The notes under the pieces are model-generated. The model did no database searches, was not told the origin of the DNA, and saw only the letters and a program-made list of their open reading frames with translations. 64,000 nucleotides of DNA, from positions 2,728,001 through 2,792,000 of the forward strand of contig NZ_JHZX01000001.1 of assembly GCF_000688335.1 (NCBI RefSeq). The letters run 5' to 3'. The translations under genes and the position numbers were made by a program. This document shows, piece after piece, positions 48,766-63,517 of this stretch (the first letter of the stretch is position 1; the number at the start of each line of letters is the position of its first letter). The DNA is from Sediminibacter sp. Hel_I_10. GTDB lineage: Bacteria > Bacteroidota > Bacteroidia > Flavobacteriales > Flavobacteriaceae.

Positions 48766-48805
48766 CAATTTATAGTATGATGGTGGCTGTTACCGTGACA
48801 TGGTT
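48766..48805 (-). promoter_or_regulatory. Phage promoter copy 1 (tape measure operon)
   Basis: The minus-strand element AACCATGTCACGGTAA (48805 down to 48790) is followed by 17 nt and then TAAATTG (48772-48766), 17 nt before the tape measure start codon. The element is identical to the copies at 56724 and 63502, and the box spacing is the same in all three. Confidence 0.75.
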
Positions 48806-48813
48806 GTAATCAA

Positions 48814-48841
48814 CAAAAAACCAACCCCTTGAGGTTGGTTT
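48814..48841 (-). terminator. Intrinsic terminator upstream of the tape measure operon
   Basis: On the minus strand AAACCAACC pairs with GGTTGGTTT (plus 48833-48841 and 48818-48826) and is followed by TTTTG. It closes the J-domain-like transcript or a short RNA starting near 48873. Confidence 0.8.
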
Positions 48842-48873
48842 GATGAGAAATACTTGCTATAACTAATCTTGGC
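48814..48873 (-). ncRNA. Candidate small RNA of about 60 nt
   Basis: A -7-like TATATTTA (minus strand, 48887-48880), preceded by the TTTAC-N5-GTAAA palindrome, would start a transcript near 48873 that ends at the terminator 48841-48814. No ORF is present in it. The transcript start is inferred; it may instead be a leader of the tape measure operon. Confidence 0.3.
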
Positions 48874-48897
48874 AGAGACTAAATATAGTAAAAATTG

Positions 48898-48912
48898 TTT
48901 ACGTATTGTAAA
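48898..48912. promoter_or_regulatory. TTTAC-N5-GTAAA palindrome A
   Basis: Copy A of the five-copy palindrome (arms TTTAC 48898-48902 and GTAAA 48908-48912), in the gap between the J-domain-like gene and the tape measure operon, 10 nt before a TATATTTA box on the minus strand. Confidence 0.6.
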
Positions 48913-49003
48913 TTTTTTACATGAATGGACGCCAATTAGCGTCCGTTCAGCTACTTTTTCAATATATCGGGACACATCTGCCACGATATATTATTTGTTT
49001 TAG

Positions 49004-49942
49004 TTAAGCGCTCCTTTTAAATTGAACAACCATAGCCCTCATGCTGCCTAGGTCCCTATTTATATAGTGCTTGTTGAATTCTTTAAACAGCTCTAGACCT
49101 TCAGGGTTTTTATCTGGATGGAATAATTTAGCTCCTTCACGCAAAGTTGCTTTTAAAGCCTTGATATCTACATAATGTTGTATTGCCTTCTTATTTAGGT
49201 GTGACGCTTTTTCTTTATAAAAACGCTTTTTATGCTCAATTGCAATTACTTTTTCTACAAGGCTTATAATACATTTTTTGTAATGTTTAAGCAATTTCTT
49301 TTGTCTATGGTTTAAAGGATACTCTTCTGAAATTAAACGTAATAGATTGATGTAACTAAGCCTATACTCACTATCAGTACTGTCATAAGATAAGTAAGGT
49401 ATGTTTTGGCCGCCCTTATACATGCCAGAGTTGACTACTTCAGCCCTAACCGCACAATGCCGCCATTGTAATTCAACAGCGCAAAATTTATATAGGTCAT
49501 AAGGATCAACACGGATAGCTTCGCTAAGATTAATTGTGTTTAAACTGTGAGAATAATATATGCCAGCTGGCCTGTTATACATTCGTAACGTATGTGGCTC
49601 ACCTTTTTTTAGGTTTGGAAAATGCTCAGTTGACTTTTTAATCTTATCCTTACAGTATTGGTAATACCATGACATAATTTTATCATCATGAATTTTTCTA
49701 TGCTCGCAGACGATTAAAAACATTTCACGATTTAATAAAACTGTTTCAGCACTTCTTGATACAACTAATCCATAATCATTAAAAACAATTTTTTTATAAA
49801 ATTTAGGATTGTCCAGATATCTCTTAAAATCCCTATGATGAGAATAATTAAAAAACTTAAAAAAATCTGAAGAGGAAAAAGGGTGTTCCAGTTTCGTGTC
49901 CAACATCTTTTTTTTGATGATTTCAATCATTTTATTGTTCAT
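49004..49942 (-). CDS. J-domain-like (HPD motif) phage protein
   Basis: The last 50 residues of this 312-residue protein match a J domain: a helix ALKATLREGAKLF, the HPD motif HPDKNP (His-Pro-Asp at about 275-277) and a helix GLELFKEFNKHY, which together resemble helices II and III of DnaJ proteins. J domains stimulate Hsp70 (DnaK) ATPase. The first 260 residues are unlike any family I know and are basic, with a Tyr/Lys-rich coiled segment (about 210-260). Presence in a prophage suggests recruiting host DnaK to a phage step. It follows a 67-residue gene after 53 nt. Confidence 0.7.
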   Translation of the reverse strand: MNNKMIEIIKKKMLDTKLEHPFSSSDFFKFFNYSHHRDFKRYLDNPKFYKKIVFNDYGLVVSRSAETVLLNREMFLIVCEHRKIHDDKIMSWYYQYCKDKIKKSTEHFPNLKKGEPHTLRMYNRPAGIYYSHSLNTINLSEAIRVDPYDLYKFCAVELQWRHCAVRAEVVNSGMYKGGQNIPYLSYDSTDSEYRLSYINLLRLISEEYPLNHRQKKLLKHYKKCIISLVEKVIAIEHKKRFYKEKASHLNKKAIQHYVDIKALKATLREGAKLFHPDKNPEGLELFKEFNKHYINRDLGSMRAMVVQFKRSA

Positions 49943-49995
49943 TTTTAGTTGTTAATGCGCACTTATTTTTAATAAAAATGCGCATTAAGAAAACT

Positions 49996-50199
49996 TTAAT
50001 CGGTTAAAAATTCGTCTAAATTTTCAAATAAAGCCAATTGATCGAAATCGGCTTTTGCGTTAATTAATTCTTCAAACCTTTCTTGAACAATTTTTAACTC
50101 AGCATTAATTTGATTTCTTTCTTGCTTGAGCTTTTTAATTTTGTCATAGTACTTAGAAATTAGAACTTGCTTTTTCTTAAATGAACTTAATGTACTCAT
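49996..50199 (-). CDS. Small coiled-coil protein
   Basis: The 67-residue protein is one long charged helix, heptad-like and rich in Lys, Glu and Leu (VLISKYYDKIKKLKQERNQINAELKIVQERFEELINA), ending in an acidic tail FENLDEFLTD. No family is recognised. It is the first gene after promoter B (50307-50338) with a large leader hairpin between them, and it shares direction with the J-domain-like gene. Confidence 0.6.
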   Translation of the reverse strand: MSTLSSFKKKQVLISKYYDKIKKLKQERNQINAELKIVQERFEELINAKADFDQLALFENLDEFLTD

Positions 50200-50220
50200 A
50201 TCTATAAGGTATTAAAACAG

Positions 50221-50263
50221 AAATCCCCCTCGATAGTAGTCACGATACTAAAGAGGGGGTTTC
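50221..50263. terminator. Long hairpin in the leader of the 67-residue gene
   Basis: CCCCCTC (about 50225-50231) pairs with GAGGGGG (about 50253-50259), flanked by A/T pairs, and inside it TAGTA and TACTA pair again. It can form in either strand. Its T-run is weak (ATTTCTGTTTT on the minus strand), so it is a weak terminator or an attenuator-like leader element. Confidence 0.6.
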
Positions 50264-50306
50264 TAAAAATGAGAGAATGTCTTGATATAGCCGTGACTCT
50301 ATACTA

Positions 50307-50338
50307 CAAACCTATCAAACTTTACAATAAGTAAACAA
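50307..50338 (-). promoter_or_regulatory. Operator-bearing promoter B
   Basis: Minus strand: -33 TTG (50338-50336), 21-nt spacer, -7 TAGGTTTG (50314-50307), an exact TAnnTTTG match. The first 15 nt of the spacer are the palindrome TTTACTTATTGTAAA (50335-50321). It would drive the 67-residue and J-domain-like genes. Confidence 0.65.
50321..50335. promoter_or_regulatory. TTTAC-N5-GTAAA palindrome B
   Basis: Copy B, inside the spacer of promoter B. Arms are TTTAC 50321-50325 and GTAAA 50331-50335. Confidence 0.65.
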
Positions 50339-50343
50339 AAAAG

Positions 50344-50358
50344 TTTACAAAAGGTAAA
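50344..50358. promoter_or_regulatory. TTTAC-N5-GTAAA palindrome C
   Basis: Copy C, just upstream of the -33 element of promoter B, centre 23 bp from copy B. Arms are TTTAC 50344-50348 and GTAAA 50354-50358. Confidence 0.65.
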
Positions 50359-50394
50359 TTTATTCGGTGAGTTGCATATCAACCAATAGGTTGA

Positions 50395-50547
50395 TCAGTT
50401 GGCCTTTACAAACTCGGTTGTAAAATCATGGGTAAGATGTTGATCTTCATCATCCAATACCAGGACACCATCTACCATAAACCATAAACTGCCAGCATCT
50501 ACAGGGATGCCCTCATTGCTGGTAACGTCTATTTTGTTTCTATACAT
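50395..50547 (-). CDS. Small acidic protein, 50 residues
   Basis: The ORF runs from ATG 50547 to TGA 50395 and encodes 50 residues, MYRNKIDVTSNEGIPVDAGS followed by LWFMVDGVLVLDDEDQH and an acidic end. Its start lies inside the end of the 99-residue gene (19-nt overlap), which supports coupled translation. It is short but reads as a plausible folded beta-type protein, with no known family. Confidence 0.5.
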   Translation of the reverse strand: MYRNKIDVTSNEGIPVDAGSLWFMVDGVLVLDDEDQHLTHDFTTEFVKAN

Positions 50548-50828
50548 GGCGCAGAGATGTTAAGGTTAGACAATTGATCAAAGTCATCGTTTGAGAACTT
50601 TAGCAGATCTTTTAAAAAGCGGTGGATTAGGTTGCGATGAAAGATGATTTGCTTACGCTCATCTGGCTCATCAGCCATTGGGGAATTTAAATAACCAAAT
50701 TCAAGATCTTGTAAGGACTCTATGATCTCGGTTTCTCTCCAGGATCTAAAGCCTCTAGACCATTCAATTAATTTGTGCGCCAGCTCTTGCGCCTTGTTTG
50801 TTTGAGCTTTTTCATTTTCTGTAGACAT
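50529..50828 (-). CDS. Unrecognised 99-residue phage protein
   Basis: The 99-residue helical protein has a Trp-rich motif (LIEWSRGFRSWRETEII) and a basic segment (DERKQIIFHRNLIHRFLKDLLKF). It is unrecognised. It overlaps the 50-residue gene and lies downstream of a 170-nt structured leader with promoter D, so the two genes form a separately controlled unit within the accessory island. Confidence 0.6.
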   Translation of the reverse strand: MSTENEKAQTNKAQELAHKLIEWSRGFRSWRETEIIESLQDLEFGYLNSPMADEPDERKQIIFHRNLIHRFLKDLLKFSNDDFDQLSNLNISAPCIETK

Positions 50829-50993
50829 AAGAAAATATTTTATAAGCGAAGCCTACCTTTAGATGTGTCTACACAGTCTAGGACCGGATATCCCTTCGTT
50901 TCCTGAGGGTCATCTTGGATAGGCTTCTATCGTTATAAAAAATAGTTTCGGATTTCTCCTAAACTTGTGTAGACAAAGCAAACATAATAAAAA

Positions 50994-51022
50994 AAAGTAT
51001 GCAATGTGTGGTTGCATACTTT
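50994..51022 (-). terminator. Intrinsic terminator after the HIRAN gene
   Basis: AAAGTATGCAA (50994-51004) pairs with TTGCATACTTT (51012-51022), a perfect 11-bp stem, followed on the minus strand by a further T-run. Its first base pair overlaps the -7 box of promoter D. Confidence 0.85.
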
Positions 51023-51054
51023 AAATATAGTGATGTTTACGTGGTGTAAACCAA
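51022..51054 (-). promoter_or_regulatory. Operator-bearing promoter D
   Basis: Minus strand: -33 TTG (51054-51052), 22-nt spacer, -7 TATATTTA (51029-51022). The spacer holds the palindrome TTTACACCACGTAAA (51050-51036), the same arrangement as promoter B. Confidence 0.55.
51036..51050. promoter_or_regulatory. TTTAC-N5-GTAAA palindrome D
   Basis: Copy D, inside the spacer of promoter D; arms TTTAC 51036-51040 and GTAAA 51046-51050. Confidence 0.65.
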
Positions 51055-51067
51055 TAACTGTCATTAA

Positions 51068-51082
51068 TTTACATATTGTAAA
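51068..51082. promoter_or_regulatory. TTTAC-N5-GTAAA palindrome E
   Basis: Copy E, centre 32 bp upstream of copy D; arms TTTAC 51068-51072 and GTAAA 51078-51082. Confidence 0.65.
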
Positions 51083-51125
51083 TAATTAGCTTTTTTATCC
51101 ATTACAAGGCGGATAATTAAAAACA

Positions 51126-51590
51126 TTAATCGTAATAATTAAGAACATCTTCTGGATGGTCGTTCTCATTAAAATAGATTTTGTAGGTTACATGTAACCA
51201 ATCTGGATTTCTATCTACCACACCTGTAAGCGCAAAGTGTTTTTTCTTTATTATTTTACTCACATAATCTGTGTCACAAGAAGCAACGTAACCTATATGA
51301 GCGCTCTCTGCCAAAACTTTTATGGCGTTTGGATCATATTCGTTATTCGGTTCATGCTCAAAGGTCAATGGGTTTCTTTCTCCAACGTAGTTGATGATGT
51401 AATATTTGTTTTCATGGACGTGCACCCCAGTAAGCTCCAACTCCTCATAATGCGTGAATGGCGTAAGGTCTTCATGAATGGTTTTTACATCTTGTCCTGG
51501 GGCAAAATGATCTGGAAATGGCTTGTGATTTATAGCCATAAGTATTGATCCCAATAAAATCACCCCAATAATAATGACTATATAAATCAT
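51126..51590 (-). CDS. Membrane-anchored HIRAN-domain protein
   Basis: The 154-residue protein starts with one membrane helix (about residues 2-19, IYIVIIIGVILLGSILMA) and carries a HIRAN-like domain (about 50-145): VGERNPLTFEHEPNNEYDPNAI (only part quoted), then the glycine-isoleucine-glycine turn in AHIGYVASCDTDYVSKII. HIRAN domains bind DNA ends or gaps, usually in helicases such as HLTF. The open frame extends to 51710, but that part overlaps another small gene and a terminator; ATG 51590 lies 15-20 nt after a TATCTTCG box. A membrane-attached HIRAN protein is unusual. Confidence 0.65.
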   Translation of the reverse strand: MIYIVIIIGVILLGSILMAINHKPFPDHFAPGQDVKTIHEDLTPFTHYEELELTGVHVHENKYYIINYVGERNPLTFEHEPNNEYDPNAIKVLAESAHIGYVASCDTDYVSKIIKKKHFALTGVVDRNPDWLHVTYKIYFNENDHPEDVLNYYD

Positions 51591-51611
51591 TTGTAAAATA
51601 TTTAATATTTC

Positions 51612-51619
51612 CGAAGATA
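51612..51619 (-). promoter_or_regulatory. Candidate -7 box for the HIRAN gene
   Basis: Minus-strand TATCTTCG (one mismatch to TAnnTTTG) lies 22 nt before ATG 51590 and abuts the T-run of the upstream terminator. Confidence 0.4.
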
Positions 51620-51646
51620 AAAAAAAACAGCCAATACGGCTGCTTT
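51619..51646 (-). terminator. Intrinsic terminator after the portal-led operon
   Basis: On the minus strand CAGCC pairs with GGCTG (plus 51638-51642 and 51628-51632) and is followed by nine T residues. It lies 6 nt after the 53-residue gene. Confidence 0.8.
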
Positions 51647-51651
51647 TCAAT

Positions 51652-51813
51652 TTATAGTGCTTGAGCAAGATCTTTAAAGAGCACGAGCGCCTCTGATCGC
51701 TCATCTGCATCGCTAGCGTAATCGCTAGTGAGATAGGCCTCGAAGACCTTTGAAAATAATTTTAAATTTTTAATGGATTGCGGGCTCTTGTCACTAACGT
51801 CTAATAATAGCAT
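51652..51813 (-). CDS. Small acidic helical protein, 53 residues
   Basis: The ORF runs from ATG 51813 to TAA 51652 and encodes 53 residues, an acidic helical sequence with KNLKLFSKVFEAYLTSDYASDADERSEALVLFKDLAQAL. It lies 34 nt after the 126-residue gene and directly before a terminator, which suits a last gene of an operon. No family is recognised. It shows that the longer HIRAN reading frame to 51710 is not the real start. Confidence 0.55.
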   Translation of the reverse strand: MLLLDVSDKSPQSIKNLKLFSKVFEAYLTSDYASDADERSEALVLFKDLAQAL

Positions 51814-51847
51814 AATAGAGGGTTTTAGTTAAAAAAAATGCTATTAA

Positions 51848-52228
51848 TCAATTGGGAGTATCTGAAAGCTCTTTTTTGATTCTGTCGGTATATTCAAACG
51901 AAAGCCTTTGTAAGATGATGTTAGCCATGCCGTAAAGCGGCGCATTATGAATTTTGTAAAAGGCTTTTTTCTGAACACCTGCTTTGCTTTGCCTAGTCTT
52001 CATATCAATAAAACGCAATTCTGTTGGGTGCGTGTATTTAAGAACGTTATCTGTAACGTTAAATGTACGGCCAGTATAAAATTTTTGAGTCTCAAAACCA
52101 CGTGAGCGCATCAACTTGACCTGTGCTTGATCAAAATCTTTTGATTCTTCACTAAGGATCTTCGCTATAAAACGCTGCTCTAGTACAGCGTTTTTATTTG
52201 GTAGTTGCCTCTGCCTAATCAGGTCCAT
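51848..52228 (-). CDS. Unrecognised 126-residue phage protein
   Basis: The basic 126-residue protein is rich in Arg and Lys with a central beta-type part (TGRTFNVTDNVLKYTHPTELRFIDM). It overlaps the preceding 60-residue gene by 14 nt. By position, late in the portal-led operon and before the tail genes, a neck or tail-completion role is possible; no motif proves it. Confidence 0.6.
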   Translation of the reverse strand: MDLIRQRQLPNKNAVLEQRFIAKILSEESKDFDQAQVKLMRSRGFETQKFYTGRTFNVTDNVLKYTHPTELRFIDMKTRQSKAGVQKKAFYKIHNAPLYGMANIILQRLSFEYTDRIKKELSDTPN

Positions 52229-52397
52229 CTTCTATGATTTTAAGTTTACCAGCTTCAAAGAGCAGCTGTAGCTTTTGTGTTGTATTCGCCTTATTTCTCA
52301 AATAATAAACGGCATGTTTGTCTAGATCATGTTTGCTCTTAAATTCTTTACTTTTTAATAACGGTTTTAAGGCGTTATCAATATCAGCTTCGGTCAT
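52215..52397 (-). CDS. Unrecognised 60-residue protein
   Basis: The 60-residue helical protein, MTEADIDNALKPLLKSKEFK followed by a Lys-rich middle and an acidic end, overlaps the next gene by 14 nt and follows the 150-residue gene after 32 nt. That 32-nt gap holds the palindrome AGTCGTA-TAATT-TACGACT (52411-52429). Function unknown. Confidence 0.55.
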   Translation of the reverse strand: MTEADIDNALKPLLKSKEFKSKHDLDKHAVYYLRNKANTTQKLQLLFEAGKLKIIEDGPD

Positions 52398-52429
52398 CTT
52401 GTTATGTTTTAGTCGTATAATTTACGACT

Positions 52430-52882
52430 TTATAACGAGGTATCAAAACTAAATAAGATGTTGCAACCGTTGCATGACGATAAGTTCCAGACCGGAACAA
52501 TCTTAATTGAACTTACATCCAGCTTTCTAAGCACAGTACAACCGCGCATTTGTTGATCTAGCATTTTCTTGATTACGAGCTGTGCCTGGCTATAAGACTT
52601 TTCGAATATTGCGAAAAACTCATCGTAATTAATATCTGAATATCCTGTTTTCTCAAGGATCATGAATTGACATACGGCAACCTGCTCAAAAGTTTCTGCA
52701 GAATCTCCTTTACTGTTAAGATCTGGCAATACACCTATGAGTAGGTTATTAAAATCTGATGAGTGCGACTCAAGGTACTTAGACAGTTGAGAACTATCAA
52801 TTACCATTTTTTGACGATTGATGCCTTCAATGTCTGTTACAACTTCATCTAGATAGCTCTTTAACCAGGTTATGATGTTCAT
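52430..52882 (-). CDS. Unrecognised 150-residue phage protein
   Basis: The 150-residue protein has an amphipathic start (MNIITWLKSYLDEVVTDIEG), a central helical region and a Cys/beta-type end with WNLSSCNGCNILFSFD. It starts 4 nt inside the preceding gene's end (ATGA), typical of coupled phage genes. The layout, late in a head-to-tail operon, is compatible with a tail terminator or neck protein, but this is inference. Confidence 0.6.
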   Translation of the reverse strand: MNIITWLKSYLDEVVTDIEGINRQKMVIDSSQLSKYLESHSSDFNNLLIGVLPDLNSKGDSAETFEQVAVCQFMILEKTGYSDINYDEFFAIFEKSYSQAQLVIKKMLDQQMRGCTVLRKLDVSSIKIVPVWNLSSCNGCNILFSFDTSL

Positions 52883-53772
52883 GAGTTAGTTGAGTTTGAT
52901 TTATTTTCAGCCTCTTTTTGGCGCGCCAGATTGTCCATATCCTTTTTACGTAGGTCATAGAGCAGGAGCAGTACTTCCCAAAGCTTTTCTTTTCTTACAT
53001 CATTTAAGTTGCCTATGATGTTGCTTTCGGCCAGGGTATAGGCAATGCTTTTCATCCCAAGACCAGGTATTTCACTTTTGAAATCGTCATTGCTGCCAGA
53101 AAACAACATGGAGAAGTCTATGAGATTGCCTTCCCAAGACATTCTTGATGTGGTGATGTCGTTGTGAAACGACGAGAAATACAAAAAGAATCCGTGTACG
53201 TGCTCTTTAGATATCAATGCCTTAATAAGTGATGCGCGTTTTTCTGTCTTGTCTGGATTGTAAGGTCTGTTTTTTGGAAGATAATAGGTAGCCATTAGCA
53301 AGTAGAGATACTTTACATCTGATGTTCTATGGTATAAATGGAAAATATTAAGCGCATCTATATATTGCCCAAAGGTTGTATTTACGAAACGAGCTTCAGG
53401 ACCCATCCATTCCTTTATAAATGGCTTAATGTTAAGGATAGGATTGTTGATCAAGTTCAATTTGATCTGAAGGTCATTTTCTGGAGTCTTAGTAAAAAAT
53501 GTATCGATACATCTTGAGATCTCGTATATGTTGGAGTGCATTGCCATTTGCTCTAGATCATTGATACGACGTTTGCCAAATTTGAAATCTAAAAACGAAT
53601 AAACCGCTTGAACCCTTAGATCTTCATACTCTATCTCCCCAAGTTGCCATCTCAAAAGAAGACCGCTCATTACGAGAAACTCTTCTTCATTACAAAATGC
53701 CAGTTCCCTGGGCATATACTTTGTAACTCCAGCTCTTAACAACTCTATTTCATGATGCGTCTTGTTTGCCAT
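52879..53772 (-). CDS. Unrecognised 297-residue phage protein
   Basis: The 297-residue helical protein, rich in Leu, Tyr and Phe, has a C-terminal charged coil (LLLYDLRKKDMDNLARQKEAENKSNST). It has no signal or membrane segment and no recognised family. Overlaps of a few bases on both sides (TAATG before, ATGA after) make it a firm operon member between the portal-side and tail-side genes. Confidence 0.6.
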   Translation of the reverse strand: MANKTHHEIELLRAGVTKYMPRELAFCNEEEFLVMSGLLLRWQLGEIEYEDLRVQAVYSFLDFKFGKRRINDLEQMAMHSNIYEISRCIDTFFTKTPENDLQIKLNLINNPILNIKPFIKEWMGPEARFVNTTFGQYIDALNIFHLYHRTSDVKYLYLLMATYYLPKNRPYNPDKTEKRASLIKALISKEHVHGFFLYFSSFHNDITTSRMSWEGNLIDFSMLFSGSNDDFKSEIPGLGMKSIAYTLAESNIIGNLNDVRKEKLWEVLLLLYDLRKKDMDNLARQKEAENKSNSTNS

Positions 53773-54062
53773 TATTTAAAGAGATCTTCATATTGAAGGT
53801 TTAAGGCTGTCATCCTCCCATTGAATTTCTCGGTGACAGAAACCCTTACTTCTTCCTTATTTTTAAAATCTTTTGGGATGTACTTAGAATTGGCATTTAT
53901 GCCAAAATAGCCTCGTAAAAAAGCATGGATATCACTCTTTAGAGCCTTACGAGCAACTAACTGCCTATTAAAAGCCGCTTGCATTTTTACATAAGCTTTA
54001 GCTAGAATATATCTGCGCTTTAGCTTTTTGAACCATTTAATTATTGAGTTGATCAGAATCAT
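53772..54062 (-). CDS. Unrecognised 96-residue basic protein
   Basis: The 96-residue protein is strongly basic in its first half (IIKWFKKLKRRYILAKAYVKMQAAFNRQLVARKALK) with an amphipathic helix, then a beta-type second half. It lies 3 nt after the 334-residue gene. A DNA or membrane contact is possible from charge, but no family is known to me. Confidence 0.55.
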   Translation of the reverse strand: MILINSIIKWFKKLKRRYILAKAYVKMQAAFNRQLVARKALKSDIHAFLRGYFGINANSKYIPKDFKNKEEVRVSVTEKFNGRMTALNLQYEDLFK

Positions 54063-54065
54063 TTT

Positions 54066-55070
54066 TTAGGTGTTTACAAAGGTGTCGTTTTCATCAAATC
54101 CATATGGATTGGATATTGTTGTTGTATCTGTGGCGGGTATAACAGCAGGAGGGAACATTTTTTTATAATGGCTCTCCACCTCCAGTAAGGAGTTGTCAGC
54201 ATCTTTTTTAAATAAGTCTGCCACTTGTTTGATCTCTAAAAATTGAGGCACTTGACGCGCTTTAACCGTAGAACTGTCACTACGTATAGATTGCAAAATG
54301 CCTTCAGGAAATAAGTTTACCTGCAGTCTTGGCAATCCATAGGACAGCGAGGAATAAGACGAAGATTTTTGAATAAGAAAAATCATTTTCTTTTCGTCTG
54401 CAGACAATGTTTCCGGTTGCGCTTTCTTGGTCTTGAGACTTTCGTAAAGCTCTTGGCCAATTCTTGGTATAATTTCATGTGATTCGCACATACTTAACCC
54501 TGGGCGAAGCTTAATTAACAACAATCTTGACTCAAGGGTGTAGAATTGGCTGAAATCCTCTGTGGTACGCACAAATAACTCATGTGATTTTGTAAACGAG
54601 GTTGATGCCTTCCAAACATCAAAATTATTGTCCATATAATTAATGAGAACGTCAATAGCCTTGTAAGAGCGCTTTTGCAGGTTATCGTCATCACGCGCAA
54701 GCATCCACTCAAACGGTGTTTTCTCATCGTCTGATGAACGCATACGACGCCCATTTGGGGTATGCGCTAGATCTGAAGCAGAGGCGTGATCTACCCATGC
54801 CATTGAACCGATAGCGTATTTAAAATACCCTGTTAGCATTTCGTCTTGATAAGGCTCTGCAGCACCTTCTTCTCCTTCTTTGTTTAGATTTTTATTGACT
54901 ATAAGTGCATCGTATGTAGATTGCCCAATTGTTTTAACGAGGTCATACGCGGCCGCGTCAAGATCTGGTTTGATTTTACGCAAGGCAATATCAGAATCGA
55001 CAAAACCAAGTGTGTCCTTAAGGTCTGAAGCAAATGCCGTGTTTGATGATATGTCGAATGGTAGTTCCAT
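54066..55070 (-). CDS. Unrecognised 334-residue protein next to the portal
   Basis: The 334-residue soluble protein lies directly after the portal gene with no gap. It is alpha-rich with conserved-looking aromatic and Asp residues and a disordered Pro/Thr C-terminus (FPPAVIPATDTTTISNPYGFDENDT). It could be a head-completion or neck protein by position. I do not recognise the family; no capsid-like fold motif is evident. Confidence 0.6.
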   Translation of the reverse strand: MELPFDISSNTAFASDLKDTLGFVDSDIALRKIKPDLDAAAYDLVKTIGQSTYDALIVNKNLNKEGEEGAAEPYQDEMLTGYFKYAIGSMAWVDHASASDLAHTPNGRRMRSSDDEKTPFEWMLARDDDNLQKRSYKAIDVLINYMDNNFDVWKASTSFTKSHELFVRTTEDFSQFYTLESRLLLIKLRPGLSMCESHEIIPRIGQELYESLKTKKAQPETLSADEKKMIFLIQKSSSYSSLSYGLPRLQVNLFPEGILQSIRSDSSTVKARQVPQFLEIKQVADLFKKDADNSLLEVESHYKKMFPPAVIPATDTTTISNPYGFDENDTFVNT

Positions 55071-56432: not shown

Positions 56433-56695
56433 TCTAAAGTCGTTTGATTAATGCTTATTAATAATGGTATATAGAACATACCGGGCTTTTGAGTATCCAA
56501 GTCTGTATAAGCTACCAATGAGTTATGTTTCTTTGAATGTGTACTTGAATAACCTGTTCGCAGTATGGCTCGCTTAACAACTTTTAAGCCTCCACCTTCA
56601 TCAATAGTTAGGTTGCATTTTATAAATGACAATTCAAAAGGAACATTCTGTTCAGATCTTAACCTCATTTGTTGTAATGCTTGGTAAACAGTCAT
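56429..56695 (-). CDS. Unrecognised protein heading the portal operon
   Basis: The ORF can begin at ATG 56755, 56695 or 56668. The promoter box TAATATTG ends at 56699, so the transcript would begin close to 56694 and the 56755 start is excluded. ATG 56695 would be leaderless; ATG 56668 would give an 80-residue product. From 56695 the product has 88 residues, a beta-type sequence (VPFELSFIKCNLTIDEGGGLKVVKRAILRTGY) with no recognised family. Its stop overlaps the portal start (ATGA). Confidence 0.5.
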   Translation of the reverse strand: MTVYQALQQMRLRSEQNVPFELSFIKCNLTIDEGGGLKVVKRAILRTGYSSTHSKKHNSLVAYTDLDTQKPGMFYIPLLISINQTTLE

Positions 56696-56698
56696 ACG

Positions 56699-56739
56699 CA
56701 ATATTAAAACAGATGGAAAGTCTTTACCGTGACATGGTT
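56699..56739 (-). promoter_or_regulatory. Phage promoter copy 2 (portal operon)
   Basis: AACCATGTCACGGTAA (56739 down to 56724) is followed by 17 nt and TAATATTG (56706-56699), the same architecture as copies 1 and 3. The five bases before it (ATCAA) are shared with copy 3. Confidence 0.75.
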
Positions 56740-57124: not shown

Positions 57125-57580
57125 ATGAGTACACAGACACCAACAGCCAAAAAGGCAAACAACGAGAAAACAGCGCCAAAAGTAAAAGACGCTAAAAATT
57201 CAAAAACTCAAAAAGATGCGATTGCATCTAAGGAAGTTAAAAAAGAAGTTGATGCAGAAAAGCCTAAAAACTTGGATGAAGCAAAAGCGAAGATTTCTAA
57301 AATCTTAACGCCTAACGTCAACACTCGTATTAATAGGCTTGAAACCTTTCAAATTAAGGTAGACAAATTCAAAGCGGTAAGCGAAAAATACGACGAGTTA
57401 ACCAATTTTATGGCGGGTAACGATAGCACAAATGCAAACATGAAATTTGCAAGCGCATCGAATTACGGTTTTACCCTTCGCAATCCTGTATTGATAGACA
57501 AAATTTTAGGGTTTGTTGAAGCTGAATTTTCGCAAATCGTAGAAAAGGCAGAAAATGAAGTTTTAGAATTCGAGATTTAA
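57125..57580 (+). CDS. Lysine-rich protein with C-terminal helical domain
   Basis: The 151-residue protein has a Lys/Ala/Thr-rich, probably disordered first third (TPTAKKANNEKTAPKVKDAKNS) and a helical domain with LTPNVNTRINRLETFQIKVDKF and ASNYGFTLRNPVLIDKILGFVEAEFSQIVEKAENEVLEFEI. It has its own promoter and terminator and runs against the surrounding phage genes. Highly basic N-termini suit nucleic acid binding, but no DNA-binding fold is evident. I do not recognise the family. Confidence 0.65.
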   Translation: MSTQTPTAKKANNEKTAPKVKDAKNSKTQKDAIASKEVKKEVDAEKPKNLDEAKAKISKILTPNVNTRINRLETFQIKVDKFKAVSEKYDELTNFMAGNDSTNANMKFASASNYGFTLRNPVLIDKILGFVEAEFSQIVEKAENEVLEFEI

Positions 57581-57593
57581 GAGGATGTTAAAC

Positions 57594-57626
57594 AAATAGG
57601 CGACACGTTGCAGATGTCGCCTATTT
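57594..57626 (+). terminator. Intrinsic hairpin after the lysine-rich gene
   Basis: AAATAGGCGACA (57594-57605) pairs with TGTCGCCTATTT (57615-57626), a perfect 12-bp stem. The T-run lies within the stem end. It sits between the two rightward genes. Confidence 0.8.
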
Positions 57627-57633
57627 TAAATTT

Positions 57634-57864
57634 ATGACCATGAAAAACACAGCCACCAACAACGACAAAATTAACCCTTTTACGGTTAGTTACCAAGTTA
57701 AAGCCATACTTCACAAAAAAGGACTTTCCCAGGCTTTTAACTATGCGGATTATGAGTACTTCAAAATCAAATGCCGTAACGCTTTTAACAAGGCGCAAGC
57801 TATTGCAAATCTATTCATTGAGGAATATAGGGAGGAAAGTAATCTAAAGGATTATCAATTTTAA
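57634..57864 (+). CDS. Unrecognised 76-residue protein
   Basis: The 76-residue protein, helical, with a central KAILHKKGLSQAFNYADYEYFKIKCRNAFNKAQAIANLF, ends in an acidic helix. It directly follows the terminator hairpin and could be read by leaky termination or a promoter not seen. The family is unknown. Confidence 0.5.
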   Translation: MTMKNTATNNDKINPFTVSYQVKAILHKKGLSQAFNYADYEYFKIKCRNAFNKAQAIANLFIEEYREESNLKDYQF

Positions 57865-58020: not shown

Positions 58021-58045
58021 AAAAAAAAATCGCCCTTACGGGCGG
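58021..58045 (-). terminator. Strong terminator after the three-gene cassette
   Basis: On the minus strand CGCCC-GTAA-GGGCG (58044-58031) is followed by A and nine T residues. It starts immediately after the TGA of the 54-residue gene, which supports that gene being real. Confidence 0.88.
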
Positions 58046-58210
58046 TCATTGTTTCTTTTCTATTTTTCTTGAAAGCCAATCAACAATTTTCTCTAAAAAA
58101 TCATATAAAAAACTTCTTTCAAAATCTCTTAAAACTGATAATTTCCATATTGCTATCTCAGGGAATAAAAACTCTTGTCTTCGTTTTTGTGTCAATATTG
58201 GTTTCTTCAT
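58046..58210 (-). CDS. Cassette gene 3, basic 54-residue protein
   Basis: The ORF runs from ATG 58210 to TGA 58046. It encodes 54 residues, starting MKKPILTQKRRQEFLFPEIA, with aromatic and basic residues and a final helix (FLYDFLEKIVDWLSRKIEKK). ATG overlaps the preceding TGA as ATGA, and a terminator follows at once, so the gene is credible though short. No family is known. It may be an antitoxin, inhibitor or accessory partner of the two upstream proteins; that is inference from gene arrangement only. Confidence 0.55.
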   Translation of the reverse strand: MKKPILTQKRRQEFLFPEIAIWKLSVLRDFERSFLYDFLEKIVDWLSRKIEKKQ

Positions 58211-58608
58211 TTTTCCAAGGTAATTACTTCTTGTTTTAAGATAATAAAAATTCCGTTTCTTTCAAAAGCTATACATCTGTAAAGGAAACCGTCTTCAATT
58301 AATTCATCTTGAACTAACTCACTTTTTTGGAAGTGCTCAATTTTAAGTTTTGGTAAATGTAAAGATTGATGTCTAGATTTTAAATTGAAAATTCTATCGA
58401 GAGGTGTTAAAGCTTTTTTACTAGAAAAATAAATTCTGTCATAAAAGTCTTTAGTTTCTTTTGTGAGATTATTAGTGCATTTGATTTTAATCCCAGGATT
58501 ATAACTCTCAAATAAATGAAAAGAATTTCCTTTTAGCCCAGAATTAGCGTCTGCTAATTCAATAGAAGATCCATTTACAAACTTAATCGTTCCTTTATTT
58601 TTTGTCAT
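58207..58608 (-). CDS. Cassette gene 2, unrecognised 133-residue protein
   Basis: The 133-residue protein, of beta-type, is Lys/Phe/Ile-rich and AT-rich in codon use compared with the terminase gene upstream. It contains FVNGSSIELADANSGLKGNSFHLFESYNPGIKIKC and a charged end. It overlaps gene 1 by 14 nt and gene 3 by 4 nt. No domain is recognised. The cassette is unlike a packaging gene and looks like cargo. Confidence 0.6.
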   Translation of the reverse strand: MTKNKGTIKFVNGSSIELADANSGLKGNSFHLFESYNPGIKIKCTNNLTKETKDFYDRIYFSSKKALTPLDRIFNLKSRHQSLHLPKLKIEHFQKSELVQDELIEDGFLYRCIAFERNGIFIILKQEVITLEK

Positions 58609-59179
58609 AAGAAATATGACCTAATTTTAATAATAAATTGACTTGTTTTAAATTTCTTATCCCAATTCTAGAATAATCCTTTAAAATTATTCTAGTCTTT
58701 TCAATTTTGAGACCAGAAAGTTTCATGAAATCTAAAATCGATTCTTCTGTATAAGGGGTAATACAACTCAATGAAAATGTTGCAGTGTAAGGTAAACACT
58801 CTTCCGTAATAGTAACATCTCCGAAAGATTTTCCATCTGCTTTAATTGATAGTTCTTTTATAAGATATTTTTGAAAGGAAAAAGGTTCAAAAGGATTTTC
58901 CCTATTTTTTTCAATTTCTTCATTCCATTCTTTCCAATACTTTTTGAATTTTTTATCAGTATCTTTTCCTAGTGGATTAAGCTTATAACTTATTAGCTTT
59001 TTAACATTAGATATATTTCTATTCAGCCAATCAACGCTAGAAGATCCATGTCCATCCAGAAGCTTATCGCCGTTTAAGGTTTTAACATAAAACCAATAAT
59101 TACCTTTATTAGCCGGTTTTCTTTGAAAGTCTAAACCTAATGAATTTAGCAATTCAATATTTTTTTTATACTCATCCAT
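58595..59179 (-). CDS. Cassette gene 1, unrecognised 194-residue protein
   Basis: The frame opens at 59290, but ATG 59179 is preferred because the upstream part lies inside the terminase gene; it gives MDEYKKNIELLNSLGLDFQRK (first residues). The 194-residue protein is Lys/Ile/Asn-rich with WFYVKTLNGDKLLDGHGSSSVDWLNRN and a C-terminal beta-type half. It begins 16 nt after the terminase stop. No family is recognised; base use is AT-richer than neighbours, which fits recent acquisition. Confidence 0.6.
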   Translation of the reverse strand: MDEYKKNIELLNSLGLDFQRKPANKGNYWFYVKTLNGDKLLDGHGSSSVDWLNRNISNVKKLISYKLNPLGKDTDKKFKKYWKEWNEEIEKNRENPFEPFSFQKYLIKELSIKADGKSFGDVTITEECLPYTATFSLSCITPYTEESILDFMKLSGLKIEKTRIILKDYSRIGIRNLKQVNLLLKLGHISYDKK

Positions 59180-59195
59180 ACCCAAATATAAGAAA

Positions 59196-60884
59196 TCAAA
59201 CAACACCCTCCAGACCTGCAGGTAGATTAATACGCTTGTACTTAACGAGCTTCGCCCATTCGTCTCTAAACAAAAGATATTTTCCGGCATCGCTAAAATT
59301 GGTGCTCTGCAGAGGGAGTTTTTTTAAGGCTAAAGCTTCAGAACTTTTGTCTTTATGAATTTCTGGGCTTCCTGTTCGTCTGTTTTTCTTTACCAAGATC
59401 TTTGAGAGTTCCATACTGCTCTTTAATTCTCTACATTGATATTCGTCAATTAAGAGCTGTGGTAATCCTGGTACCGTTTGCTGAAGTACTTGCTTCATAA
59501 AGAAATATTCCTCGCTCTGGTAAATAGTAGCCTGGCCTTTTGACATTAAGGTGACTTTCCAATTTGTACTGTTTCCGTTTTCGTCAAACTCAATGTTGTT
59601 TTTTACTTCTGTAGCCCAATCACGGCCACTACTTGCGTATTGGTTACCCGAACGGTCGTAATACATATAGAGTCGCTTATTTTGATGTGGCGCAAAGAAA
59701 TCCCTAAATTTCTTACCAATCTCCTTACTGCTTTCTGGGATTAAGGTATAAAAGTTCTTTAGGCAATAGATTTTGTTACCGAAAGTTTGTGCCACAACCA
59801 TACTAATCATCTTGCCAAAATCTACGCCGCACTCTAATGGCGCGTGTGGGTCTACATACCGAAGCATCAAACTTGTAAAATCTTCCTTATCCTTAATGCC
59901 GGTGCGCATGGCAATCTCATTCAAAATACCATCGCTATAAAAATGCTCTTGGCCGAGTCCGGTATAAAACTTATCTCCTTCCTCAAGAGAAGATTTAAAA
60001 CTCAACACACTTTGCTTAAACTCTTCCCATCCAAGCGCATCCAGCTGGTCAATAATATATCCTGGTGTTAGGATATCCAAATTGACCAAACTACTTACTA
60101 CGAGAAAAAACGTAGTGTCATATCTGGCGGTGTACCACCTGATCATCCAACGCTCTCTTTGCTTTACCAATTTTTTTAATGCAATACGATCTTTTTTGTC
60201 ATAAGCCCTTTTAATCTTATGGTTAATGTCATTCAAGATACTGCCTGCCTGGTAAGCACGTTTTACTTTCTCCACGTCCATTTGATCACGGGTCTCCATG
60301 ATCCAGTCGTGGTTCTTTTTAGAAATGTTTGGTAAATCTGTTGTAAAGGTTGTTCCTCTGTAAAAAGGCGAATAAGATACTTGCGAAAATCCACGTAGAG
60401 CAGGGTAGATGATGTCTACCACCTTTTTGTCATGATACTTCACTTCGTCCCCAAAGAGATGCTGAAAACTATCCCCTGCAAGTCCTGAAGGCTGATCTAA
60501 GCTTCCTAACTTAAATATAGCGCCGTTATGTATGGAAATTGTGTTTTTGTACCTGATAATAGGCGTATAGGGATGCTTGAAATGAGATGGAGGCCTTTCG
60601 TCATAAACATAATGCTTACCCTCAATCCATCCTTTGTACTCTCTCCAACCTTCAATGAGCTTTGGTATCACCTTATCTTTTGCATTTACAAAAGTATCTG
60701 CAACAAATCCTAATACACTCCTGGGCATATCATAAACAACATCCATTGAGCGATCTGCCTGAACATCTGTGGTTTTTGTGGTACCACGCCCGGCTATAAA
60801 ACGCAAATGTTTAGGGGATATAAGATCTATGGCCTGCTTCACAGGGTTACCATATCGATATTCTACATTGTGATCATTCTTCAT
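59196..60884 (-). CDS. terL: Phage terminase large subunit
   Basis: TerL is the ATPase and nuclease motor that packs DNA into the head. The 562-residue protein has a Walker A of the terminase type, FIAGRGTTKTTD (about residues 29-40), a Walker B-like HLFGDEV preceded by hydrophobic residues (about 140-150), and a nuclease part with ECGVDFGKMISMVVA and YYDRSGNQYASSGRDW. The length is normal for terminases. It overlaps the preceding gene by 11 nt and lies upstream of the cargo cassette. Confidence 0.88.
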   Translation of the reverse strand: MKNDHNVEYRYGNPVKQAIDLISPKHLRFIAGRGTTKTTDVQADRSMDVVYDMPRSVLGFVADTFVNAKDKVIPKLIEGWREYKGWIEGKHYVYDERPPSHFKHPYTPIIRYKNTISIHNGAIFKLGSLDQPSGLAGDSFQHLFGDEVKYHDKKVVDIIYPALRGFSQVSYSPFYRGTTFTTDLPNISKKNHDWIMETRDQMDVEKVKRAYQAGSILNDINHKIKRAYDKKDRIALKKLVKQRERWMIRWYTARYDTTFFLVVSSLVNLDILTPGYIIDQLDALGWEEFKQSVLSFKSSLEEGDKFYTGLGQEHFYSDGILNEIAMRTGIKDKEDFTSLMLRYVDPHAPLECGVDFGKMISMVVAQTFGNKIYCLKNFYTLIPESSKEIGKKFRDFFAPHQNKRLYMYYDRSGNQYASSGRDWATEVKNNIEFDENGNSTNWKVTLMSKGQATIYQSEEYFFMKQVLQQTVPGLPQLLIDEYQCRELKSSMELSKILVKKNRRTGSPEIHKDKSSEALALKKLPLQSTNFSDAGKYLLFRDEWAKLVKYKRINLPAGLEGVV

Positions 60885-61551
60885 GTCTCGGATCTTCTCC
60901 AGGTTCTATAAATAATTTGAAAGGCAAACGTCCGGCCTCACGTTTAAGAACATCTTTTTCCATTTCGGTAAGCTCTTTATAACCGTCAATTGCTGCAGCA
61001 ATTTCTCTACGATCGTATTTAACCATTCCAACATCTTCAGGATTTTGCGTATAAAGTTTAAATGGCCTATCAAATAATCCTTCAGGGAAATCTTCGATAT
61101 CTGGTTGATCAAGCTGGCGAAACTTAAAGGCCTTCTCGCGCATCTTGCTTATTTTTTCCAAATCGTCAATGCCTTCAGATGCTAATCGTGCAATTGCAAT
61201 ATCCTGGTCCTGCTCATCGGCATACATATTTCTATAGGCTTGCTTTGAAATGGAGCTCTCCATGTAGAAATACTCAATGGTATCACAATAAATTTTGTTT
61301 GCTATATGCGGATCTAGATTATTGACCTTAACCAAATGGTTTATGATATGGTTTTTAGTGGCAAATTGACGATAGCGCAGTTTCATTGCTCTAACCTTTT
61401 CAAGAGCATCTAAATAATCAACGATATCTGCAGGAGCGTTTTCAAAATTGCCTGTCTCTACAAAATCATGGATATCATCCACGGTAATATGAGCAGGTAC
61501 TTTAATATTTTTATATAGTTCCACCATAGACCTGGGATTTATAGTTTTCAA
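60874..61551 (-). CDS. Unrecognised 225-residue protein in the packaging block
   Basis: The 225-residue helical, acidic protein lies between a candidate small terminase and TerL and overlaps both, the first by up to 41 nt (17 nt if ATG 61527 is used) and TerL by 11 nt. It has a helical stretch with KLRYRQFATKNHIINHLVKVNNLDP and a glutamate-rich end. It could be a second small-terminase-like protein or a head assembly factor; no motif decides it. Confidence 0.6.
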   Translation of the reverse strand: MKTINPRSMVELYKNIKVPAHITVDDIHDFVETGNFENAPADIVDYLDALEKVRAMKLRYRQFATKNHIINHLVKVNNLDPHIANKIYCDTIEYFYMESSISKQAYRNMYADEQDQDIAIARLASEGIDDLEKISKMREKAFKFRQLDQPDIEDFPEGLFDRPFKLYTQNPEDVGMVKYDRREIAAAIDGYKELTEMEKDVLKREAGRLPFKLFIEPGEDPRHEE

Positions 61552-61846
61552 AATCTTTGATCTTACGTCGCTTCTCTATAGTTTGTGCCGCTGTAATATT
61601 TCCTGTCCTGGCGTTTTGGCTCAATTTATCATCAATTTCAAATTGAGACTCCAAACGCCCTCGCTGTATGGCCAACCATTCATCACTATCTTCAGTAGTG
61701 GCTTTAATTCTAAATTTGCTTTTAGATTGAGAGAGGTATATCGCCATTTCATCGTAACTGTAGTTTACAGAAGATAAACGCTCAATAGTTTCTAAATAGG
61801 AGCAGTCTGATAATTCTTTAGGTAGTTTTGGGGCTTCCTTTTTCAT
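61511..61846 (-). CDS. Candidate small terminase subunit
   Basis: The 111-residue protein has an N-terminal helix-turn-helix-like part (YSYDEMAIYLSQSKSKFRIKA) and a helical charged C-terminal part (LSQNARTGNITAAQTIEKRRKIKDFENYK). Small terminases bind the packaging site with such an HTH and form rings by helical parts. The place just before TerL supports this. The call is by pattern only. Confidence 0.5.
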   Translation of the reverse strand: MKKEAPKLPKELSDCSYLETIERLSSVNYSYDEMAIYLSQSKSKFRIKATTEDSDEWLAIQRGRLESQFEIDDKLSQNARTGNITAAQTIEKRRKIKDFENYKSQVYGGTI

Positions 61847-61847
61847 G

Positions 61848-62474
61848 TCAACTTTTTACAATTTCACCATTAATAGCTCTGTAGCGGATCTCGCTCTCTG
61901 TAAAGAGCTTCATTCTAAAATCAAACAAACCTTTGCTATTGGCAAAAATGTATTGTTCTAAACTTGCGTTTTCACTCCAGTTCCCCGAGCCCTCAATAAT
62001 ATAATTCGCTTCTTTTGTTTCTATAAGGCAAACTTTAGAGTGATTCCATCCAAACAACACATTTATATTAGCGTACTGTCTATTCACTGTGCTCAGTAGG
62101 TCACAGATCATCATATTCCGGCTTAACATCGTATCGCTAACCAAAAGCGTTATCTCATCCACCTTTCCAGTTTGATGAAGTTCTACCAATGCATTTATAA
62201 CGCGCTTATTAATACTGTACGTTGTGGCCAACAAATGTTTGGCGCTCTGGTTCTCTAAAACCACAGGTATAAACGTAAATGCATTGAAGGACTTCTCACT
62301 TTGCAGAAAAAAGAACTCCTCGGCCTCTGGCAATCGAGTAAGTTCCTTTTTTATGCTAGAAACCTTTTGGTAATGGGCCAACAAATATTTAGAAACAAAA
62401 CTTCCAGAAACCGACGCCTGCTCTATAGGAGTAGGCTTAGCATCTGGAAGTGAAAAGAACTTATTACGCTTCAT
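61848..62474 (-). CDS. PLD-like (HKD motif) protein
   Basis: The 208-residue protein carries the phospholipase D-type motif WNHSKVCLIETKEANYIIEGSGNWS, that is HxK, four further residues and an acidic Glu, then GSxN, in about residues 142-166. The PLD superfamily includes nucleases and lipid hydrolases; one HKD is enough in dimeric nucleases. The acidic residue differs from the usual Asp. Sitting in the packaging block suggests a DNA role. It lies 1 nt before the small terminase candidate. Confidence 0.65.
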   Translation of the reverse strand: MKRNKFFSLPDAKPTPIEQASVSGSFVSKYLLAHYQKVSSIKKELTRLPEAEEFFFLQSEKSFNAFTFIPVVLENQSAKHLLATTYSINKRVINALVELHQTGKVDEITLLVSDTMLSRNMMICDLLSTVNRQYANINVLFGWNHSKVCLIETKEANYIIEGSGNWSENASLEQYIFANSKGLFDFRMKLFTESEIRYRAINGEIVKS

Positions 62475-62477
62475 ATA

Positions 62478-63446
62478 CTAGCTGATCTTAGCAATCCTTG
62501 TATCTACGAGCTCCAGTTCTTTTTTTGCGAGGTTAAGCTTGTCTGCAAATTTGGTTTTTGCATCTCCATCATCCATCTTCTCTAATTTTCCGTTGTCACG
62601 GCTTATATTGGCGCGCAGTGTTTTTTGACGTTGCGATAATTTAATGCCTGGTAATTCATCTACCTTTTTTTGTAGCATGGTCATTTCAAAAATGGGGTGC
62701 TTTCCAAGTATCTCACCTTCATTTTTATAGTAGTTCAGCTCGTCGTAGATATCTAGGTTCAATTCAAAGTTTTCTACGGAAACCTTAGCCAATTCAAAAA
62801 TCTCATCTTCTGAAGCTCCAGCTTCTAAAAGTTTTTTGATTTCCTCACGTGAATCTTTAAACTTACCGTAAGCCGTCATTTTATCTGCCACTAAAACCTT
62901 AAGTTCGTCCGGACAATCGTCTGCAGATAAAAACGGAAATTCATCACGTAACTTTACGTTTTGCTTTACGTCTTCAGGCGCGTCTAAAAACGGATTTACA
63001 AAAGTTTCCTCTACTTTTTTATAATCTTGAATAAATTTAATAAGGTCCTCTTTTTTGCGAGACTCCAGCTCTACTTTTACAGCTTCAGAAATATCATTGG
63101 CCAGTGGCACAATTTCTTTGTGATAATTGGCAGTCTCAAGATCTATAGCGTTTATCGTTTCTTGAAGTTCTTGAGAAATATCTAGAACAATTTCTAAATC
63201 TTCAGCTTTACGCTCTTCTTTTTTGGCAGATCTGATGTCTGCCTCTGTAATGTGAAATAGCTTTTTTACATCATACTCCAGACTGTCTAAATTTTTGGGA
63301 CTATAACCTCCGGCATTGTAAAATCTTTTTTGAAAGGGGGTAGCATCCTTATGATCTAAAAGGACCTGCAGCAGATCGTTAAAACGGACTTTTAAAGCAG
63401 CAATTAAAAAGATGGTCAACACCTTTTGTTTTAATGTAGTTTTCAT
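62478..63446 (-). CDS. Long charged coiled-coil phage protein
   Basis: The 322-residue protein, Lys/Glu-rich and mostly helical, begins with a hydrophobic stretch (KVLTIFLIAALKVRF) and has long coils (LQKKVDELPGIKLSQRQKTLRANISRDN). It heads the packaging operon from promoter copy 3 and could be a scaffolding protein, but such a call needs evidence beyond charge and coil. No family is recognised. Confidence 0.6.
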   Translation of the reverse strand: MKTTLKQKVLTIFLIAALKVRFNDLLQVLLDHKDATPFQKRFYNAGGYSPKNLDSLEYDVKKLFHITEADIRSAKKEERKAEDLEIVLDISQELQETINAIDLETANYHKEIVPLANDISEAVKVELESRKKEDLIKFIQDYKKVEETFVNPFLDAPEDVKQNVKLRDEFPFLSADDCPDELKVLVADKMTAYGKFKDSREEIKKLLEAGASEDEIFELAKVSVENFELNLDIYDELNYYKNEGEILGKHPIFEMTMLQKKVDELPGIKLSQRQKTLRANISRDNGKLEKMDDGDAKTKFADKLNLAKKELELVDTRIAKIS

Positions 63447-63477
63447 ACGTATGTATTATTAAGTTCTTAAGAAGTCA

Positions 63478-63517
63478 CAATTTAAGAGCAATTGCATACG
63501 CTTACCGTGACATGGTT
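63478..63517 (-). promoter_or_regulatory. Phage promoter copy 3 (packaging operon)
   Basis: AACCATGTCACGGTAA (63517 down to 63502), 17 nt, then TAAATTG (63484-63478), 32 nt before the 322-residue gene. It matches the other two copies in element and spacing. Confidence 0.75.

Follow-up and report, generated by a model that had tools for sequence, protein, structure and literature searches.

The 64,000-nucleotide stretch of Sediminibacter sp. Hel_I_10 analyzed here (contig NZ_JHZX01000001.1, positions 2,728,001 to 2,792,000; the window, with coordinates counted from its first letter and continued past its end) carries a prophage whose late operons are headed by a 16-base repeat, AACCATGTCACGGTAA (the 16-mer), proposed to be the activator site of a class of late promoters. 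The prophage begins beside a tRNA-Arg gene (38726-38800), with the integrase at 38905-40095, and extends leftward to the tail genes, starting from an early region at about 86 kb. The early region includes the repressor, open reading frame (ORF) 66, the small cro-like ORF65, the LuxR-type ORF64 and the primase ORF61. No att repeat of at least 15 nucleotides (nt) was found between the end of the tRNA-Arg gene and the rest of the stretch, so the right boundary of the prophage is not fixed. The terminase-like, portal and capsid-region proteins match 48, 47 and 44 of 50,697 phage records, respectively, with the best late-gene matches in laban6-1, 6H-type phages and Ingeline, and the portal, terminase, capsid and tape measure genes are homologous to those of Duneviridae. 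By this late-gene homology, the prophage is considered Duneviridae-like.

Five exact copies of the 16-mer, all on the minus strand and each followed by a candidate -7 promoter box, stand at the heads of five late operons (P1 to P5; Table 1). The first-pass annotation of the window had placed one copy before each of three leftward operons, tape measure (P1), portal (P2) and packaging (P3), and all three are exact at those positions. The P1 operon head is identified as tape measure by PHROGs, the P2 operon as portal by homology to an Ingeline gene annotated as portal, with weak PHROGs support, and the P3 operon as packaging by synteny and by a terminase-like protein that has no PHROGs match. Two additional copies, 3.6 and 6.9 kb past the window, head the protease/capsid (P4) and lysis (P5) operons. 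The intrinsic terminators reported earlier before copies 1 and 3 fold well, at -14.2 and -19.7 kcal/mol (z -3.1 and -5.7), and the stretch preceding copy 2 is unremarkable in folding (z -0.9). Copies 2 and 3 also share their preceding bases, 'agtatca', as had been noted.

Within the host genome, the 16-mer is exclusive to the prophage. The three copies are the only matches in the window at up to 3 mismatches (shuffled sequences had a mean of 0.40, and 0 of 100 had three or more), and the whole genome of 4,106,053 bases holds the five exact copies, all within the prophage, and none with 1 or 2 mismatches; as a control, the 16-mer with its letters in reverse order matches 4 times when up to 2 mismatches are allowed. 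Frequent occurrence elsewhere in the host genome, named in the first-pass annotation as a sign against a phage promoter class, is therefore not seen. A scan of 38000-87300 at up to 4 mismatches adds three places with 4 mismatches each, one of which, within ORF8 at 49679, is followed 17 nt later by TAAGATT. One extra match to the short form TGTCACGG lies in the prophage, on the opposite strand at 62594 and without a box. The exact 16-mer is found in 0 of 396 other genomes sampled from the family, and no other genome or viral contig searched has this version in more than one copy; 11 viral contigs have one copy each, none of them with a box at the right distance.

The spacing between the 16-mer and the box is 17 nt in all five promoters. 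This had been described for the window copies, which precede TAAATTG (P1), TAATATTG (P2) and TAAATTG (P3), and is true likewise of P4 and P5, with TTTTTTTG and TAAGTTTG. Three of the five boxes are an exact fit to the Bacteroidota -7 box, P5 as TAnnTTTG and P1 and P3 as TAAATTGY (TAnnTTGY), and the P2 box has one mismatch. In a study of flavobacterial promoters, classes SM1-3 have TAnnTTTG, which fits P5, and class SM5 has TAnnTTGY, which fits P1 and P3 (PMC9723704). The same study places TAnnTTTG at -12 to -5, which would put the core shared with related phages, TGTCACG within the 16-mer of this phage, near -37 (PMC9723704). The 16-mer spans the region where a -33 element would sit, and the TTTG of that element is not in the 16-mer, which holds no TTG. 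The missing TTG speaks for an activator, although the paper that describes the -33 TTTG element also states that the motif was not found in F. johnsoniae (PMC7366714).

In relatives of the prophage, comprising Duneviridae and kin, the same operon heads often have TGTNACA or TGTCCTTT about 21 nt before TAnnTTTG. The repeat of the Flavobacterium phage laban6-1 is (T/C)ATGTCACAA, at the tape measure, portal, packaging, protease and holin genes; that of the Flavobacterium phage 6H is CATGTCTTAAA, at the portal, packaging, protease and lysis heads, with no site found before its tape measure gene; and that of the Cellulophaga phage Ingeline is TGTCCTTTTAA, at gp01, gp07, gp29, gp42 and gp47. Scans of the whole records, each with the phage's own pattern, place 5 of 5 matches in laban6-1 and 4 of 4 in 6H at late heads; Ingeline has 6 matches, five with a box and a sixth without one that lies 97 nt before another. 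The TGTCCTTT sites recur in the Helgolandviridae phage Leef_1, and in the Bacteroides phage BT-TP2 and a Porphyromonas phage they are fewer and closer to background. With five copies at late heads, and relatives with related sites and a TAnnTTTG-type box, the late promoter class proposed in the first-pass annotation is well supported. To judge by the sequences, it is a family-wide class whose members and candidate activator are new and whose kind is known.

For a broader view, 120 loci were reduced to 90 by removing near copies, and 184 upstream stretches, each 150 nt before one of four anchor genes, were searched. TGTNACR is present in 69 of the 184 (7.4 in random stretches of the same loci, 12.6 in base shuffles), TGTCCTYY in 29 (2.2 and 1.6, and 0 on the other strand) and TGTCTTAA in 6 (0.1 and 1.0, and 0 on the other strand); as the three patterns were derived from the same loci, these counts describe and do not test. 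For TGTNACR, random stretches and shuffles were used because the opposite-strand count (71) is no control, the pattern being nearly its own complement. Any of the three patterns precedes the holin in 5 of 6 cases, the protease in 25 of 50, the packaging gene in 29 of 73 and the portal in 45 of 55, with anchor starts estimated and the versions TATCACAA, TGTCAR, CCTTGCTGTT and CGTCACA left out. When aligned, 78 TGTNACR sites, a few of them chance matches, follow the layout TGTNACR, 21 nt, then TAnnTTTG; the pattern required no box, and its positions are nevertheless occupied by T (65/92/76%), A (87%) and G (72%). A first de novo search (k=11) had missed the motif in this prophage in favor of an A/T-rich alternative.

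The near-palindromic center of the 16-mer had been taken as a sign of a dimeric activator, a reading that the relatives do not bear out. They do not retain the near-palindrome of this phage, and since the center base of TGTNACA is C (68%), A (18%) or T (14%) and never G in the 78 sites, the palindrome is used in one orientation only. The TGTGACA orientation, as a dyad operator usable both ways would show, occurs in 0 of the 78. With orientation fixed and the other site classes (TGTCCTTTTAA, CATGTCTTAAA) asymmetric, the palindrome was rejected as dimer evidence, and the dimer appears weakly founded and not supported by these alignments.

Within one phage the site versions resemble each other, but they diverge from phage to phage, even in a pair of Flavobacterium phages, and the factor that reads them should therefore be phage-encoded. 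Chance 16-mer matches in viral contigs lack a box, in 11 of 11 cases for the 16-mer of this phage and in 18 of 18 for that of another locus (L094); a contig with three copies of the L094 16-mer has a box at two of the three, and an ORF40 homolog ends at one of the sites. ORF40 is a protein of 189 amino acids whose stop codon abuts the P5 16-mer, and the lead to it was a Bacteroides phage protein annotated as transcriptional regulator. Its profile converged on 62 hits, 54 of them distinct, including proteins of Ingeline, Leef_1, BT-TP2 and a Porphyromonas phage. Of the 41 dereplicated loci in which the protease hit falls 2.5 kb or more into the locus, 37 contain ORF40, and a search of 14 further records found it in 13, including genomes or records of the four loci without it; in three of those four it lies just upstream of the locus by coordinates, with presumed contig identity. 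A site starts within 40 nt of the ORF40 stop in 22 of the 54 distinct members, against 1.8% of control stretches, and lies within -40 to +250 nt of the stop in 27 of the 54. Among the 27 others, three have CGTCACA or CGTTACA by eye, and 10 of 12 further members inspected by eye have a site-like stretch at or behind the stop, three as CGTCACA. Unusual phage versions also recur behind ORF40, namely TATCACAA in L035, CCTTGCTGTT in L058 and TGTAACA in L097; L068 has TGTAACAC behind ORF40 but TGTAACGC at other places. In L075, at about 2900-3050, an array of GGTAAC-like repeats stands behind ORF40 instead of the usual single site.

The proposed mechanism is that the 16-mer would be the activator site of the five late promoters P1 to P5, where the host RNA polymerase would recognize the -7 box but need a phage protein bound at the -33 region, with the ORF40 product as most likely that protein. 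The prophage repressor may add a further level of control. In the genome there are 26 copies of the palindrome TTTACN5GTAAA (19 when read backwards), 8 of them in the prophage of roughly 48 kb, where about 0.3 would be expected by length. Two copies lie between the repressor and cro, and another (74668-74682), accompanied by a second dyad, immediately precedes a perfect box, TATATTTG, ahead of the ORF43-42-41-40 operon. As these putative operators stand at both places, they suggest that both the early operon and the ORF40 operon are kept off by the repressor. Loss of repression would then switch on the ORF43-40 operon, and ORF40 bound at its sites would switch on the lysis, head, packaging, portal and tail operons together. 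The whole of this, five activator-dependent late promoters with ORF40 as the most likely reader and a repressor-controlled ORF43-40 operon, is judged moderately probable. The wider proposal is put forward tentatively and at somewhat less than an even chance: ORF40 would represent a new late-activator family, its fold absent from the PDB, that replaces -33 recognition, is encoded directly before the late block and has a site diversified phage by phage across Bacteroidota phages, from Flavobacteriia to Bacteroides and Porphyromonas.

The putative operators outline what looks like a second regulon, with places between called ORFs, including some within the late block and some outside the window (86487-86550, 74657-74682, 51036-51082, 50321-50358 and 48898-48912). 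Some 95 nt of the minus strand upstream of P1 (48912-48818) hold, in succession, an operator of the repressor type, a TATATTTAG stretch and a terminator, and a short repressor-controlled RNA there is possible. Outside the window, nine TTCAAG/CTTGAA hexamers fall in the 290 bases before ORF43 (74620-74908; 62 in the 60 kb scanned), an iteron-like cluster that perhaps marks a replication origin or the sites of another regulator.

Several observations weigh against the proposed mechanism. The P4 box, TTTTTTTG, lacks the A and is poor; 80 of the 184 upstream stretches are without a site of the three patterns (104 have one); the 27 ORF40 members without a pattern site near the stop, mainly distant ones, are half of those found; and the ORF43-40 operon has no 16-mer in this prophage, although its homolog in Ingeline is headed by a late site. 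ORF40 itself has no Pfam or NCBIfam family and no recognized DNA-binding domain, its PHROG is of unknown function or absent, its structure model is of moderate confidence (pLDDT, the predicted local distance difference test, of 80.6), the fold search returned no similar solved fold (best E 0.23), and the matches of its profile among PDB sequences are weak and probably due to chance (eIF3 subunit H, E about 0.01). The known late-activator domains Mor/C, Ogr and RinA/ArpU were found neither in ORF40, by Pfam and NCBIfam, nor in ORF64, by Pfam.

The covariation of sites and proteins bears on ORF40 and on its rivals alike. Mantel tests dropped phages with fewer than two matching sites, keeping 33 of the 42 with an ORF64 sequence, and for ORF40 those in which it is missing or cut, leaving 24 and later 31 of the 33 (with the ORF40 of L085 standing for L100). 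At n=31, site distance correlates with ORF40 at 0.52, portal at 0.55, terminase at 0.50 and the helix-turn-helix (HTH) of the LuxR-type protein at 0.41. ORF40 keeps 0.355 given LuxR (p 0.0005), 0.193 given terminase (p 0.002) and 0.107 given portal (p 0.048; 0.149, p 0.022 in the smaller set of n=24). The divergence of the sites tracks ORF40 no better than portal or terminase, ORF40 falls to 0.089 (p 0.08) given both, and portal given ORF40 keeps 0.223 (p 0.001), all of which also counts against ORF40. Whatever the reader is, it seems to be inherited together with the late block; ORF40 is the best candidate by place and spread, and covariation does not single it out.

Another candidate reader is ORF64, the LuxR/GerE-type second gene of the early operon, whose product would bind the site and recruit polymerase while ORF40 has another role. 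ORF64 was the first choice on universality: its family is the only one in 22 of 22 early regions (18 of these chosen for holding it), is found in 24 of 28 records and, in a second set of 30 that includes 4 already searched, is nearly full length in 14. By model and fold it has a GerE-type HTH, and GerE-type proteins usually activate from sites overlapping the -33 region. At its C-terminal end the model is matched by VraR and NarL (prob 1.00, E 0.03; none with E of 0.001 or less), and the Pfam GerE family is above cut-off in the Ingeline homolog, just below it in that of laban6-1 and not listed for this ORF64. Site distance correlates with the ORF64 HTH at 0.44 (n=33) and at 0.177 given terminase (p 0.003), and the recognition-helix stretch keeps 0.191 (p 0.002), but given portal the HTH falls to 0.039 (p 0.24, n=33; 0.024, p 0.34, n=31) and given ORF40 to 0.059 (p 0.14, n=31). 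ORF64 was demoted on the partial test against portal and on L022, L035 and L095, whose HTH neighbors are mostly TGTCCTTT-type phages and whose own sites are yet of TGTCACA or TATCACA type. A few TGTCCTTT-like sites occur in BT-TP2 and in a Porphyromonas phage, neither with a detectable ORF64; sites without a full ORF64 are also seen in L101, a prophage of decayed appearance; and the Bacteroides phage Versailles has an ORF64-type protein and no repeated site of this kind in the first 50 of 58 kb; Leef_1 has both. A role of ORF64 as reader is accordingly rated unlikely. A reader of some other kind, such as a late-block protein (for example a small HTH-like terminase partner), a sigma-like protein or a host polymerase changed by the phage, would agree with the fixed orientation of the sites, as in a promoter element, and with the way in which the sites track portal and other late-block genes at least as closely as they track any regulator tested; gene comparisons, incomplete for small genes, found no other universal regulatory-looking gene before the late block, and this reading is held to be rather improbable. 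ORF43 and the 111-amino-acid protein of the terminase operon are conserved and were set aside as readers, as they look structural or terminase-related. That the repeats are sites of RNA processing, packaging or recombination rather than promoters is very improbable: short exact repeats between operons can serve such roles and some of these abut terminators, but TAnnTTTG is kept at a fixed distance, start codons follow shortly behind, all lie on one strand, and in four complete phages the sites are confined to late heads except for two partial matches without a box.

Late promoters that depend on an activator are known from Mu (C protein), P2/P4 (Ogr/Delta) and staphylococcal phages (RinA). The proposed system would resemble these in having one phage activator with one repeated site in the -35 region of each late operon, and host polymerase with its own -10/-7 box, so that several late operons are switched together; it differs in the Bacteroidota box TAnnTTTG, in the core TGTNACA or TGTCCTTT, and in a candidate activator without a recognized family or similar solved fold. 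The Duneviridae phages 6H, laban6-1 and Ingeline have late genes homologous to those of this prophage and, at the corresponding heads, related sites, and differ from this phage and each other in that each has its own site version. Late gene control in Bacteroidota phages is little described, and no late promoter or activator for them appears among the matches listed from the open-licence literature, an absence that is weak evidence. No TGTNACA element is seen in the accessible sections of PMC9723704, whose main text does not contain the word 'phage'. In PMC8776804, density sensing for a lytic switch is read from the LuxR and integrase genes that Duneviridae and Helgolandviridae carry; these LuxR genes are of the same family as ORF64, considered above, and disfavored, as a late activator rather than a density sensor, and the word 'promoter' occurs 0 times in the main text. 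Late regulation becomes directly testable with a promoter class that can be read from sequence and a candidate activator now named for dozens of phages. In genomes with little annotation the sites could also mark the heads of late operons, and Bacteroidota genetics could draw on activator-promoter pairs that differ in specificity.

Table 1. Features of the late promoters, their operons and the candidate readers
Feature	Position	Strand	Remark
P1 site, 16-mer	48790..48805	-	heads tape-measure/tail operon; box 48772-48766
P1 -7-like box TAAATTG(C)	48766..48772	-	fits TAnnTTGY (PMC9723704)
Intrinsic terminator upstream of P1	48818..48841	-	folding
P2 site, 16-mer	56724..56739	-	heads portal operon
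P2 box TAATATTG	56699..56706	-	then ATG 56695-56693
P3 site, 16-mer	63502..63517	-	heads packaging operon
P3 box TAAATTG(T)	63478..63484	-	
GCAATTGC palindrome between P3 site and box	63488..63495	-	recurs at packaging promoter in relatives
Intrinsic terminator upstream of P3	63523..63558	-	folding
Tape measure gene, first behind P1	44553..48749	-	PHROGs
Portal gene, second behind P2	55071..56432	-	homology to Ingeline portal
Terminase-like gene, packaging operon behind P3	59196..60884	-	
First gene behind P3	62478..63446	-	
P4 site, 16-mer, beyond window	67602-67587	-	before protease/capsid genes
P5 site, 16-mer, beyond window	70921-70906	-	before lysis genes
ORF40, candidate reader, beyond window	70922-71491	-	
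ORF64, LuxR-type candidate reader, beyond window	85600-86172	-	

Individual promoters have features of their own. Between site and box, GNAATTNC is present in 18 of 30 packaging promoters, 1 of 32 protease promoters, 3 of 24 portal promoters and 0 of 20 others, and because of this recurrence the packaging promoter may have a second regulator. The GCAATTGC palindrome at P3 is perhaps the site of that regulator or of terminase binding. At P2, the ATG of the portal operon lies 3 nt behind the box (56693-56706), and across phages 17 of 24 portal promoters have an ATG no more than 8 nt from the box, as compared to 5 of 32 protease promoters. As the ATG is so close to the box, the portal mRNA is probably leaderless.

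Other observations concern the gene content of the prophage and its relatives. Two rightward gene pairs lie within the leftward late block, at 57125-57864 and 67746-68422; the former is kept in laban6-1 and 6H, and the latter includes an XRE-type HTH gene. The ORF64-type protein of Versailles (L213:4947-5453) is annotated as sigma factor and lies directly behind a repressor-like gene, and the terminase and portal of this phage are not among the relatives listed. In the records of the L101 prophage (L210/L211), there is no LuxR gene between cro and primase and no site before the protease; the tail genes look broken up, and this prophage is probably decaying.

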